NCBI RefSeq assembly: GCF_000181515.1
Contig: NZ_ABCG01000005.1
Span: forward strand, 124,001 to 188,000
Source of the DNA: Erythrobacter sp. SD-21
GTDB taxonomy: Bacteria; Pseudomonadota; Alphaproteobacteria; Sphingomonadales; Sphingomonadaceae
Direction of reading: 5' to 3'
DNA length: 64,000 nucleotides
The notes under the pieces were generated by a model. It searched no databases. It was not told the origin of the DNA and worked only from the letters and a program-made list of their open reading frames with translations. How positions within the stretch are numbered: position 1 is the first letter of the stretch; every line of letters starts with the position of its first letter. Below, in pieces: positions 38,188-41,662 of the stretch. Both the position numbers and the translations under genes were made by a program.

Positions 38188-38711
38188 CGGGCTGCCTCGG
38201 CCATGGCTACCGAGGCGCTGGCCGGCCGCGCAAGGCGCTGGGCGAGGCTGGTTGCAAGCCGCTCGGCAGGCTGGCTTTCGACCACCGCTACGGCAAGCGC
38301 CTGACCACCCTCGGAAGGTTCGTCATCGCTCATCCAGTCGCCGAACAGGCTGTCATCCTCAACCGGGCCGGTGTCGGCCTTGGCAACGCGGATCGGCTGG
38401 GGCGCGCCCAGTCCGCGCGGCGTGCCGAGCGCGGCAAGCTGGCGTTCGTGCTCGACATACTGGTCGGCACGCGGGGCGTTGTAGCCGAATTCCACCTGGT
38501 TCCACGCCGCGAGCTGCTGCTGGCTGGCACGGGTCTGGAATTCGGTTTCGAGCATCAGCTTGGAGCGTTCCGCTGCAATGATCTGGCGTTCGATCAGGCG
38601 CACGTCGCTCTTCACGGCGTTCACCTGGAAGGTAAGCGCGAGGAACAGGGCAACGCAGGCCCCGAGAAGGAGCAACCAGCCGATCTGGCGAACGCGTGAG
38701 GTGCGGGACAT
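38184..38711 (-). CDS. ftsL: FtsL-like cell division protein
   Basis: 175 aa, longer than the usual 100-120. It has a basic tail (MSRTSRVRQ), one membrane helix (GWLLLLGACVALFLALTF), then a coiled-coil-like stretch with the FtsL pattern VKSDVRLIERQIIAAERSKLMLETEFQTRAS and LAAWNQVEFGYNAPRADQYVEHERQLAALG. The last 80 residues are an acidic, Ala-rich periplasmic tail of unknown use. It lies between rsmH and ftsI, as FtsL does in other dcw clusters; the assignment rests on position and topology. Its start shares a base with the rsmH stop. Confidence 0.85.
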   Translation of the reverse strand: MSRTSRVRQIGWLLLLGACVALFLALTFQVNAVKSDVRLIERQIIAAERSKLMLETEFQTRASQQQLAAWNQVEFGYNAPRADQYVEHERQLAALGTPRGLGAPQPIRVAKADTGPVEDDSLFGDWMSDDEPSEGGQALAVAVVESQPAERLATSLAQRLARPASASVAMAEAAR

Positions 38712-39649
38712 CAGGCAGCCTCCCTCGCCGGTGCGGCGGTGCGGACCGCGTGGCGCAGCACCGAAGAGCGCGCACGCGGGTTGCGGTCGATCTCGGCTTC
38801 GGTGGGCTTGATCGCCTTGGAAACGGGAGAGAAGACCGGATCGACCTGTGCTGCCATGGGGACGTGACGCGAGCCGCTCGGGGTCGAGGATGCCTCGCGC
38901 AGGAAGCGCTTGACGATCCGGTCTTCGAGGCTGTGGAAGCTGACCACCGCAAGGCGGCCCCCTTCGCGCAGCAGGTGTTCGGCGGCCGACAACCCTTGGG
39001 ACAGTTCGTCGAGTTCGCCGTTCACGTGAATTCTGATGGCCTGGAAGGTCCGGGTGGCCGGGTCCTTCTTATCATGCGGCTTGTGACCCAGCGCCTTGCG
39101 CACGACACGGGCGAGGTCGCCGGTCGTCTCCAGCGGACGCGCGGCCACGATCGCGCGGGCAACGCGGCGCGACTGGCGCTCTTCGCCATACTGGTAGACC
39201 ACGTCCGCTATGGTGCTTTCCGCCGCGGTGTTCAGGAAGTCGGCCGCGCTTTCGCCATCCTGGCTCATGCGCATGTCGAGCGGGCCGTCGGCGGAAAAGG
39301 CAAAGCCGCGATGCGCCTGGTCCAGCTGCATCGAGGAGACGCCGATATCCATGACCACGCCGTCCACGCGCTCCACACCGGCAGCGCGCATGACTTCCAG
39401 CATCTCCGAAAAGCGATGCGGGTGGAGGATTAGGCGGGGCGGAGTTTGCTCCGTCTCCCGCCACGTGCGACCCGAAGCAATGGCGTCGGGGTCTCGGTCG
39501 AATGCATGAACGGTCGCGCCGCGTTCGAGCAGCGCGCGCGTGTAGCCGCCCGCGCCGAACGTGGCGTCGATAAGCACATCGCCCGGCTGCGGGTTCAGCG
39601 CTTCGACGACTTCGTCAAGCAGGACGGGAATGTGGGGCGCGCCGCTCAT
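38711..39649 (-). CDS. rsmH: 16S rRNA (cytosine1402-N4)-methyltransferase
   Basis: 312 aa from the ATG at 39649, which overlaps the mraZ stop by ATGA. Signatures are [37 protein letters not shown] (SAM-binding), [38 protein letters not shown] and [15 protein letters not shown]. It methylates C1402 of 16S rRNA in the ribosomal P site. It is the second gene of the dcw cluster. Confidence 0.96.
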
Positions 39650-40131
39650 TTGCCTTTCGCCTTTGCATCGGCAAGCAGGCTTTCGCAGGCAGCCTTGGCG
39701 CTGGCCCAGTCGTCGCCCATCTCGGCGAGCTCGCTCGGGTTCCACAGCGTGAAGAAGCGACCGCCGCCCTGGAAATAGAGGCCGTCCTCGATCTTGCCGA
39801 GGGCGCGCAGATGTTCGGGCATGACGAAGCGGCCACTGTCGTCGAAAGGCATTTCGACGAAGCCGAACAGCTGGCTGGCACGGGTGTCGCGGTCGAAATC
39901 GCGGTTCAGGCGGATCGCCATCTCTTCCTCGCGGTCGAGCTGGGCATCGAGCTCTTCCTTGCGGCTGAGACCGAAGCCGACGAGGCAGTTCCAGGTGGGA
40001 TGCTTCATGAGGCACAGGACGCGGCCGTCGGAACTTTCCTTCACGGCCTTGCGGAACAGAGGCGGAAGCACAAAGCGGCCCTTATCGCCCGCAGGCGAAT
40101 AGGCTTGTCCGCTGTACCCTCCGAATTGCAC
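39646..40131 (-). CDS. mraZ: Transcriptional regulator MraZ
   Basis: 161 aa if begun at GTG 40131 (GGGGA seven bases upstream); GTG codons at 40170 and 40218 would give longer forms. Two SpoVT/AbrB-like beta domains are visible: [18 protein letters not shown] near the start and [25 protein letters not shown] later, each with the (D/K)xxGR core. MraZ forms rings and represses the dcw promoter by binding repeated GGG-containing boxes upstream of itself. It is the first gene of the cluster, and the region upstream has ten GGGA boxes spaced 9-12 bp. Confidence 0.93.
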
Positions 40132-40293
40132 TGCCTGTCCCCGCGCTCTGGCCCCAGTCGGCGTTTTCACCTCTCCACCAGACACACCTCCTCCGTCCGC
40201 AAAAGCACGCGCTTTCACGGCGCGCCCGCATTAGCGGCGCGCGCAACGACACTGGCATGTCCGATGTCTGAGTGATTTATCGCGGAAGGCGCG

Positions 40294-40327
40294 GGGATGG
40301 AAGGGAAAACTGCGGGATTTTACGGGA
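40294..40327 (+). repeat. Phased GGGA array 1, near the mraZ promoter
   Basis: Four GGGA boxes on the plus strand start at 40294, 40303, 40314 and 40324 (spacings 9, 11, 10). They lie just downstream of the candidate mraZ promoter start point (about 40344, reading leftwards). One box per helical turn on the same face suits a ring-shaped DNA binder such as MraZ. Confidence 0.6.
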
Positions 40328-40350
40328 TTAACCCGCAACAAATTGATTTA

Positions 40351-40380
40351 GTTATACTTTTACTCCTAAAAGCCTGTTGA
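40351..40380 (-). promoter_or_regulatory. Candidate dcw (mraZ) promoter
   Basis: On the minus strand TCAACA (-35 like, 40380-40375) and TATAAC (-10 like, 40356-40351) are 18 bases apart, in the only AT-rich stretch of this intergenic region. It sits between the two GGGA arrays. The -35 matches the sigma-70 consensus at four of six positions and the -10 at five of six. Confidence 0.5.
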
Positions 40381-40435
40381 AATCTCTAAGATTTCGTTAA
40401 CGTCGCTTATGGAAAACCGCAGAAGTTCCGTCACT

Positions 40436-40493
40436 TCCCGTGAACCTCCCGTGCCATTCCCGGGAAATCCCCGCCCGAGTCCCGCGATTTCCC
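40436..40493 (-). repeat. Phased CGGGA array 2, upstream of the mraZ promoter
   Basis: Six TCCC (GGGA on the minus strand) boxes start at 40436, 40447, 40458, 40468, 40480 and 40490, with spacings 11, 11, 10, 12 and 10. Five of the six are CGGGA on the minus strand. The array lies about 55-115 bp upstream of the candidate promoter, just after the stop of the lipoprotein gene at 40504. Together with array 1 it fills the 372-bp gene-free stretch before mraZ. Confidence 0.65.
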
Positions 40494-40503
40494 GTGTCAG
40501 AGT

Positions 40504-41280
40504 TCAGCCTGGAAAAATACGAAGGAGAAGATCGCGAAGCGCGCCGCTGCGGGCAGCACCTTCTTCGTGGTCGTCGAGCAGGGCGGCGTCGGCGACCATT
40601 AGCGCCCGCCCCTTGCCGAGACGGCAATCCGCCACCAGCCTGTCGACGAGCAAGGCGCATTCGTCCCCGCCCGCGCCGCCGCGCAATTCGAAGTGACCCG
40701 CAAGCTCGACCGGCAGGACGAGATCGTCCGCAGCGACGCCGCGTAATCCCGCCCGCTGCCCCTCATCGAAACGCAGCACAAGCCCCCAATGCGCAAGAAG
40801 CGGCGAGAGCACTACCATGTCATGCGGGCGACGCGGGTCGCCAAGCGGATAGTCGCTGTGCTGAGTCAGCATCGGGTCGGCGAAGACCAGCGCACTTCCG
40901 CCGTTTCGCACCCACGCGTCGAAAGCCACGTTCTCGGAAGGCGCCAGCGGGCGCGGCTGGGCGAGGATGACACGATCCAGCCCTAGCAGCGCGTCTTCTT
41001 CGAGCGTGTCGAGGGGGACGATTTTGCCCTCTTCCTCCAGCACGCTGCGGACCCAGCCCTGTTCGCCTGCCCCCTCGAGGATTGCCGCGACATCACCGCC
41101 CTCGCCCCAGTAGATCGGCAGAGTGGAGAAGAGGCCGAGGCGTTCGCCTTCCTGCCCATCGATGCTCCTGGCCGCTTCCGCTTGCGGCGCGATCGCGTCC
41201 GTGGCCGGCTCCGGTTCGCCATGGCAACCGGCAAGCAGGACAGGGAAGAGTGCGGCGAGCCTAAGGCTGGCGCTGGTCAT
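40504..41280 (-). CDS. Lipoprotein of unknown function (DUF4350-like)
   Basis: 258 aa from the ATG at 41280; the open frame extends further but only as an antisense-like Arg/Pro-rich stretch. A lipoprotein signal is clear (LRLAALFPVLLAGC). The rest looks like the GATase-like domain of GldG/DUF4350 proteins: LFSTLPIYWGEGGDVAAIL, then VPLDTLEEDALLGLDRVILAQPRPLAPSENVAFDAWVRNGGSALVFADPML and a late helix LRDLLLRIFPG. No catalytic residues are recognised. It overlaps the upstream 41261 gene by 20 bases, so the two are probably co-transcribed with cysK. Confidence 0.65.
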   Translation of the reverse strand: MTSASLRLAALFPVLLAGCHGEPEPATDAIAPQAEAARSIDGQEGERLGLFSTLPIYWGEGGDVAAILEGAGEQGWVRSVLEEEGKIVPLDTLEEDALLGLDRVILAQPRPLAPSENVAFDAWVRNGGSALVFADPMLTQHSDYPLGDPRRPHDMVVLSPLLAHWGLVLRFDEGQRAGLRGVAADDLVLPVELAGHFELRGGAGGDECALLVDRLVADCRLGKGRALMVADAALLDDHEEGAARSGALRDLLLRIFPG

Positions 41281-41662
41281 TTTCGGGAGTGGCCTGTTCG
41301 GGAACGACGGCGGGCGACTGGCTGGGCGTGGGAGAAGGCGCATCCGGGAGGTCGGGTACCACGCCCGCTTCGACCAGCGGATCGTTCTGCGTGACCGTCT
41401 CGCTCGGCTCGGTCGTCGGCGCGGCGGCCGGGACGGCGGCGGCATCGACCTCGCGCGTGCGATCCTGGATCAGGCTGGCCAGGCCGACCAGCAGCACCAT
41501 AAGAACGACACCGCCAATGCCGAACTGGAGACGCTGCACCGATTGCGAGCGCGTCCCGCCGAGCGGAAGATCGGTGGGATCGCTCGGTCCGGGAGCGTTG
41601 CGGGTAAGATCGAGGCCACGCGGCATGGGGCGAATCTTGGGCCTCGCGGCGCGCTTCGTCAA
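41261..41662 (-). CDS. Single-pass membrane protein of unknown function
   Basis: 133 aa from TTG 41662, which overlaps the cysK stop and has GAGGAC six bases upstream; an ATG at 41626 is the alternative but lacks a well-placed site. A polar N-terminus of about 45 residues leads to one membrane helix (FGIGGVVLMVLLVGLASLI), then a low-complexity Ala/Pro/Thr/Glu tail in the periplasm. No family is recognised. It sits between cysK and the lipoprotein gene with overlaps on both sides, so the three form an operon. Confidence 0.65.
   Translation of the reverse strand: MTKRAARPKIRPMPRGLDLTRNAPGPSDPTDLPLGGTRSQSVQRLQFGIGGVVLMVLLVGLASLIQDRTREVDAAAVPAAAPTTEPSETVTQNDPLVEAGVVPDLPDAPSPTPSQSPAVVPEQATPENDQRQP

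Follow-up and report, generated by a model that had tools for sequence, protein, structure and literature searches.

In Erythrobacter sp. SD-21 and in relatives from 39 genera, the DNA upstream of mraZ carries two opposed arrays of short GGGA boxes, and the distance between the distal and the proximal array is helically phased. MraZ is a widely conserved bacterial transcription factor whose gene heads the division and cell-wall (dcw) cluster; little is understood of how, and to what end, a protein of ring shape recognizes boxes set in a straight line. That the distance between two opposed arrays keeps to the helix in so many genera leads to the prediction that MraZ engages two DNA segments simultaneously; if this is true, the region represents a natural phasing experiment maintained by evolution. 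We consider it moderately probable that the arrays form a two-part operator, in which MraZ binds both and closes a repression loop. The helical phasing goes beyond the original prediction for this DNA, which had claimed more than is found here with respect to the place of the promoter and the number of boxes.

The window analyzed is a stretch of 64,000 nucleotides of contig NZ_ABCG01000005.1. Followed in the direction of mraZ, the region comprises a six-box distal array, about 110 bp, and a four-box proximal array with a degenerate fifth box. The original prediction listed four GGGA boxes on the + strand with spacings of 9, 11 and 10, and these are read as proximal boxes 4 (40294..40297), 3 (40303..40306), 2 (40314..40317) and 1 (40324..40327), each being TCCC in the mraZ sense; the degenerate box 5 (40284..40287, +) is GGAA here and GGGA in several relatives of the same genus. 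The mraZ-sense start of box 4, position 40297, serves below as the reference point P. The six boxes predicted on the - strand (TCCC on +), with spacings of 11, 11, 10, 12 and 10, are equally present, as distal boxes 6 (40436..40439, nearest to mraZ and 142 bp from P), 5 (40447..40450), 4 (40458..40461), 3 (40468..40471), 2 (40480..40483) and 1 (40490..40493). Distal box 1, 196 bp from P, lies shortly beyond the stop codon of the upstream gene, which is 209 bp from P.

A chain was defined as boxes at a spacing of 9-12 bp. The count in shuffled sequence that had been proposed together with the prediction gave a longest chain of at most three boxes in 20,000 dinucleotide-preserving shuffles of positions 40219-40503 (285 bp), compared with the observed six and four. 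Given the word counts alone, four of five boxes in a chain on the + strand has P of about 3e-4, and six of six on the - strand was reached in 0 of 200,000 draws. Chains of at least three boxes occur within the 64-kb window solely at this region. In the assembly of the same genome (2.97 Mb, 19 contigs), the three-box pattern has 12 matches, six inside the two arrays and six at separate places, compared with a single match of the reversed control pattern, and nowhere else do overlapping three-box matches form longer arrays. The other 24 genomes searched contain isolated three-box matches at rates near the reversed control, so that a lone match elsewhere means little. A three-box match of the form GGGATCGGNTGGGANNANTGGGA recurs in several genomes of the same genus (e.g. 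G000:C18:426187-426209) and perhaps sits in a conserved coding gene.

The gene downstream of the arrays is mraZ (39646..40131, -), identified by a match to NCBIfam NF001477 (E=2.4e-12) at 47 bits, under the curated cut-off of 162, and followed by rsmH. For the same product, PF02381 scores 19.8 bits against a cut-off of 23, and MraZ is absent from the results of a Pfam search of the whole genome. Since MraZ of this lineage falls below the curated cut-offs, surveys relying on those models would overlook it. Its start is probably the GTG at 40131 rather than position 40218: the alignment of the relatives' MraZ begins at this GTG, and some relatives have in-frame stops between the two candidate starts. 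The AlphaFold model of the window's MraZ, built with 18 close sequences, has a pLDDT of 51, too poor for use, and the comparison with PDB sequences gave six weak matches with no MraZ entry among these. The next dcw gene, rsmH/mraW, lies in an ORF at 38711..40015 (-; PF01795, E=4.8e-90, residues 127-423), the listed start of which is probably upstream of the real one. After mraZ, the gene order is rsmH, an ftsL-sized ORF, an ftsI-type penicillin-binding protein and murE, with ftsL and murE named by order and translation, without a family match. On the other side of the arrays, the ABC_transp_aux-like gene at 40504..41445 (-; PF09822, 32.9 bits, cut-off 34.7) is co-directional with mraZ. This gene has a tblastn match (E up to 1) in 187 of the 196 upstream regions described below, making it a conserved neighborhood.

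A search of 298 genomes of the family identified MraZ relatives in 286. Altogether 237 loci were taken, E. coli (L140) and the filler locus L239 being excluded; the named close relatives, from Qipengyuania, Erythrobacter, Altererythrobacter and allied genera, contribute 59 loci. Most family loci come from the matches listed, which reach down to about E=4e-24, so that weak matches are undersampled. Fifteen of the 237 loci, mostly deep or distant relatives, scored below 15 on the proximal profile and were dropped, and the remaining 222 gave 196 distinct upstream regions once identical ones had been merged. The comparison within the genus covers 24 of 25 loci, the search motif being absent from L023, and the genus-level tests employ the loci with a G handle, which represent 46 genera. 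To locate the stop codon of the upstream gene, tblastn (E up to 1) was used in 187 regions and the longest open frame in all others. A further 38 order-level and deep-family loci and 30 loci of the class were examined separately, outside the 196; in these, distal chains were read at the 49 of 68 loci that were anchored, some loosely; the separate reading of arrays and TTGAC beyond the 196 includes two loci without an anchor and several anchored inside the gene. Conservation in related genomes had been suggested as a check of the prediction: both arrays are kept, and the positions and phase of the boxes are largely kept as well.

The proximal array follows the core consensus TCCCg.aaaaTCCCg.aaTTTtCCCTTccaTCCCc......ccCg.G.TA over the 196 regions. 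In columns counted from P, TCCC is found in 86-95% at -30..-27 (box 1) and in 90-100% at -20..-17 (box 2), CCC in 98-100% at -8..-6 (box 3), and TCCC in 94-98% at box 4. Most proximal arrays have 3-5 intact boxes, and intact four-box arrays are usually spaced by 10, 11 and 9 or by 10, 10 and 10, both of which sum to 30 bp. Between and beside the boxes, TT at -5/-4 from box 4 is found in 100 and 98% of the 196 regions and TA at +18/+19 in 100%, with a G two bases 5' of the latter in 90%. In the window, these bases belong to a putative -35 hexamer, TTCCAT (40297..40302, -), inside the array and, 17 bp from it, a putative -10 hexamer, TAAATC (40274..40279, -), in which the TA is invariant; transcription would then start near 40267. 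A consensus sigma-70 scan of 40000-40600 gave no site.

Arrays at loci outside the family have the strand orientation of the proximal array. TCCC chains of at least two boxes occur in 23 of 30 class-level and 10 of 20 order-level loci, chains of at least three boxes in 10 of 30 and 2 of 20, and CATTGAC in 12 of 30 and 18 of 20, respectively; in L243, from other Alphaproteobacteria, TTGAC and a TATCCC-like -10 lie interspersed among the boxes. The proximal array resembles the single array of other Alphaproteobacteria. Together with these arrays, the conserved TT and TA at the distance of a -35 and a -10 suggest a promoter inside the proximal array, which thus probably carries the -35 and -10 of mraZ itself, instead of leaving them between the two arrays, where the original prediction had put its candidate promoter.

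A distal array of at least two GGGA boxes at 9-12 bp is present in 164 of the 196 regions and in 39 of 46 genera, compared with TCCC chains in 3 of 196 in the same stretch; no distal chain was found in 32 regions and seven genera. Beyond the family, GGGA distal chains are rare, being found, with loose anchors, in 3 of 29 anchored class loci and in 2 of 18 order loci; in the deep-family loci, a GGGA chain occurs anywhere in the stretch read in 3 of 18. Five of 18 order loci, from other families (L275, L277, L279, L281 and L289), have a second upstream TCCC chain in direct orientation, approximately 150-200 bp before the TTGA anchor, and distal arrays of the MraZ type may have originated repeatedly. 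By size, the 164 distal arrays comprise 113 with two boxes, 21 with three, 21 with four, five with five and four with six, so that the six boxes of the window, found in 4 of 196 regions, are unusual; the total of ten boxes stressed in the prediction is real in the window and is not the rule.

This size distribution also bears on the proposal that the repeats act as a nucleic-acid structure. A G-quadruplex has been reported by the S. aureus mraZ promoter (PMC11796246), and the distal array of the window reads G3-N7-G3-N4-G3-N1-G4. A promoter G-quadruplex was rejected as a candidate, because four conserved G-runs are not found: the 113 two-box arrays hold too few G-runs for one quadruplex. Nor does such a structure predict the helical phasing described below, and we regard this explanation of the arrays as very improbable.

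Direct repeats with a GGG core at a period of approximately 10 bp are thus found upstream of mraZ, and the MraZ-box form that had been attributed to both arrays is borne out by E. coli, which has GTGGGAAATTGTGGGGCAAAGTGGGAATAAGGGG before mraZ; the distal arrays of relatives L007, L008, L011 and L021 contain GGGAAATTGCGGGA. Outside the GGGA core, the distal boxes correlate with proximal boxes 1 and 2 (r=0.53 and 0.66) and hardly with boxes 3 and 4 (r=0.06 and 0.01). The moderate match to the first pair and the lack of any match to the second would suit a reading in which a DNA-binding protein other than MraZ recognizes the distal boxes. We think this improbable: the distal boxes share the GGGA core, the near-10-bp period and the likeness to the E. 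coli MraZ boxes, and the divergence of boxes 3 and 4 could be explained by their adjacency to the putative -35.

The distances from the last distal box to box 4 cluster at approximately 111, 121, 132, 143, 153, 164, 174 and 185 bp. A period of 10.5 bp fits these distances best (R=0.71, n=164), and when each of the 45 different distances is counted once, R is 0.49 at 10.5 bp; if the first distal box is taken instead of the last, the optimum shifts to 11.3 bp (R=0.68), with R=0.67 at 10.5. Within 2 bp of the mean phase lie 145 of 164 arrays, versus 50% for the mraZ codon (n=128) and 48% for the upstream stop codon (n=164), and where both landmarks are available (147 regions), the array gives R=0.72 and the stop codon 0.09. 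When each genus counts once, the array distance gives R=0.76 (n=39, p=1.7e-10), compared with R=0.31 (n=36, p=0.03) or 0.32 (n=46, p=0.009) for the stop codon, whose weak genus-level phase implies that some shared ancestry remains in these data. Ten of 11 control words give few chains or no significant genus-level phase. The eleventh, GCGG, forms chains in 52 of 196 regions with a genus-level R of 0.68 (n=27, p=4e-6); 59 of 129 members of its chains are GCGGGA, so that GCGG is not an independent control, and this overlap with the boxes explains the phasing of GCGG in part only. More than 3 bp off phase are 12 of 164 arrays, 11 of these at 188 bp or more. In L021, L022, L087, L088 and L213, whose arrays are 200-222 bp away, the deviation from phase amounts to approximately half a turn. 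With increasing distance the phase may lose importance, or the off-phase arrays may represent different arrangements.

Since the gain or loss of boxes in register could give an appearance of phasing, pairs were compared in which the gap between the distal array and the stop codon is unchanged. L008 and L009 have an identical four-box pattern (10, 12, 10) and an 8-bp stop gap, and their spacers differ by 10 bp. Among 47 such pairs with the same pattern of at least three boxes and the same stop gap, which overlap in their members, the spacer differences are 0-2 (27 pairs), 10-12 (16) and 22 bp (4), with no others. Twenty-four non-overlapping same-gap pairs have spacers that differ by no less than 3 bp, and in 19 of these the difference is within 2 bp of a whole number of turns (P=7e-4 versus 45%), the homology of the arrays being assumed, since the spacers of many same-gap pairs are only 50-60% alike. 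Distances between the arrays differ by 3-7 or 14-18 bp in 34 of 852 tabulated aligned pairs (917 in all), compared with 238 of 651 for the mraZ-codon control. Spacer length changes thus tend to be whole turns. The gain and loss of boxes as the sole cause of phasing is opposed by the same-gap pairs and may explain some, though not all, of the length changes. By parsimony, 67 turn changes were counted on a tree built from a short region; this number is probably inflated and is not used as main evidence.

These results leave a negligible chance that the arrays are accidental or inherited repeats without joint function. The phylogenetic signal kept by the stop-codon control and the phasing of the word GCGG are what could be cited for such an origin; the shuffles never yield such chains, the phase survives changes of spacer length, the stop and mraZ codons are hardly phased, and the spread of distal arrays over 39 of 46 genera largely contradicts it. 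Another possibility is that the distal array functions independently of the proximal one, as a roadblock that stops read-through from the upstream gene or as a decoy that titrates MraZ. Its position close to the stop codon of the co-directional gene, the first distal box being at most 56 bp away in 137 of 147 regions, fits this idea. Neither a roadblock nor a decoy needs a helical phase; the phase to the promoter block is kept and the stop codon is hardly phased, and we give this possibility a low probability, slightly below that of a protein other than MraZ on the distal boxes.

The proximal array, the probable promoter and the IHF-like site described below all stand at fixed places, so that phasing is equally compatible with the distal array facing any of the three. 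The phase was measured against the whole of this block, which would also suit a mechanism in which MraZ occupies both arrays and the distal MraZ contacts RNA polymerase or IHF, activating or modulating the promoter with no MraZ-MraZ loop. For mycoplasmas, an activating role has been ascribed to MraZ (PMC7761207, citing other work); MraZ is a repressor in E. coli (as cited in PMC8475190 and PMC7761207) and in M. genitalium (PMC8475190), and for inverted arrays of the same box at 110-190 bp a contact between operators is the simpler fit. We therefore hold such a loop-free mechanism to be unlikely, and prefer the two-part operator closed by MraZ. The looped complex that the original prediction envisaged gains in that the distance is helically phased, as such a complex needs, and loses the promoter that it had supposed between the arrays.

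Under the two-part operator, MraZ on the proximal array, overlying the -35 and -10 of mraZ, would block RNA polymerase. The distal array, with its two to six boxes in opposite orientation mostly 110-190 bp upstream, would be a second MraZ operator that faces the proximal one from a constant side of the helix. Oligomers of MraZ seated on the two arrays would join, or one ring would bridge the arrays, forming a DNA loop, perhaps aided by IHF bending the DNA at an intervening site, and the loop would raise the local concentration of MraZ and sharpen the autorepression of the dcw cluster. In its fullest form, this model has an MraZ loop repressing the whole dcw cluster throughout the Erythrobacteraceae and allied Sphingomonadaceae, with one ring or two stacked rings gripping the inverted arrays on one helix face and IHF bending the DNA between them; we advance it tentatively, being slightly inclined to doubt that it holds in every part.

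The candidate IHF site, AATCAATTTGTTG (40336..40348, -), lies between the arrays and is a perfect match to WATCAANNNNTTR, which, with an A-rich 5' flank, we take to be the IHF consensus. Perfect matches occur in 23 of 196 regions (shuffles 1.3), and 88 regions have a match when up to one mismatch is allowed (shuffles 22.8); of the matches of the latter kind on the sense strand, 74 share one fixed place, and the columns beside the site (-66..-60) are A-rich. Farther upstream, too, the motif with up to one mismatch exceeds the shuffles (32 versus 8.7 of 196), the reversed control is slightly raised (26 versus 17.7), and the motif is only loosely associated with the distal array (68 of 164 regions with it versus 10 of 32 without it). 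To some extent, the match may represent an A/T-rich element of the promoter. The genome has genes for both IHF alpha and IHF beta, and each passes the cut-off of a single NCBIfam model (NF001401, NF001222). A CtrA site (TTAA-N7-TTAA) between the arrays, half-sites of which had been seen by eye, was also considered and rejected as not exceeding the spacing controls, with exact matches in 1 of 196 regions versus 1.1 in shuffles and, allowing one mismatch, 27 versus 15.6, the N6 control giving 30.

The E. coli operator, reportedly described by Eraso et al. in 2014, consists of TGGGN repeats before mraZ. It likewise has GGG-core boxes at a 10-bp period in front of this gene; its boxes are on the sense strand, whereas here the proximal array is antisense and is accompanied by a second, opposed and phased array. 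Looped repressor operators are known from lac, gal (with HU), ara and deo. These share with the present system two operators and helical phasing, and in gal a bending protein, and differ from it in that arrays of many small boxes would here serve an AbrB-type protein, in a loop that we infer. To our knowledge, an MraZ-mediated loop would be the first of its kind. Among the papers listed, with subscription papers outside this set, titles and the beginnings of abstracts contained no report of a second, opposed or phased MraZ array. In B. cenocepacia, the promoter has four 7-nt repeats with 3-nt spacers, and a probe with them is bound by purified MraZ, whereas an upstream probe (-386 to -136) is unbound (PMC7761207); the repeats are at the promoter, as is probable here, and, unlike here, no distal site was found in that work. 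Mollicute MraZ reads AAAGTG[T/G] direct repeats at mraZ (PMC8475190), which resemble the present arrays in kind and place and differ in box sequence, a second array not being mentioned in the accessible portion of that text.

The leader of mraZ, from the predicted start site to the GTG at 40131, would be approximately 136 nt long (40132-40267, -). An Rfam search over 39950-40700 returned no family up to E=1. The leader opens with a conserved block, CCATCGGACA (columns +30..+39), and the GC-rich inverted stretches seen by eye in the mraZ leaders of relatives suggest structure.
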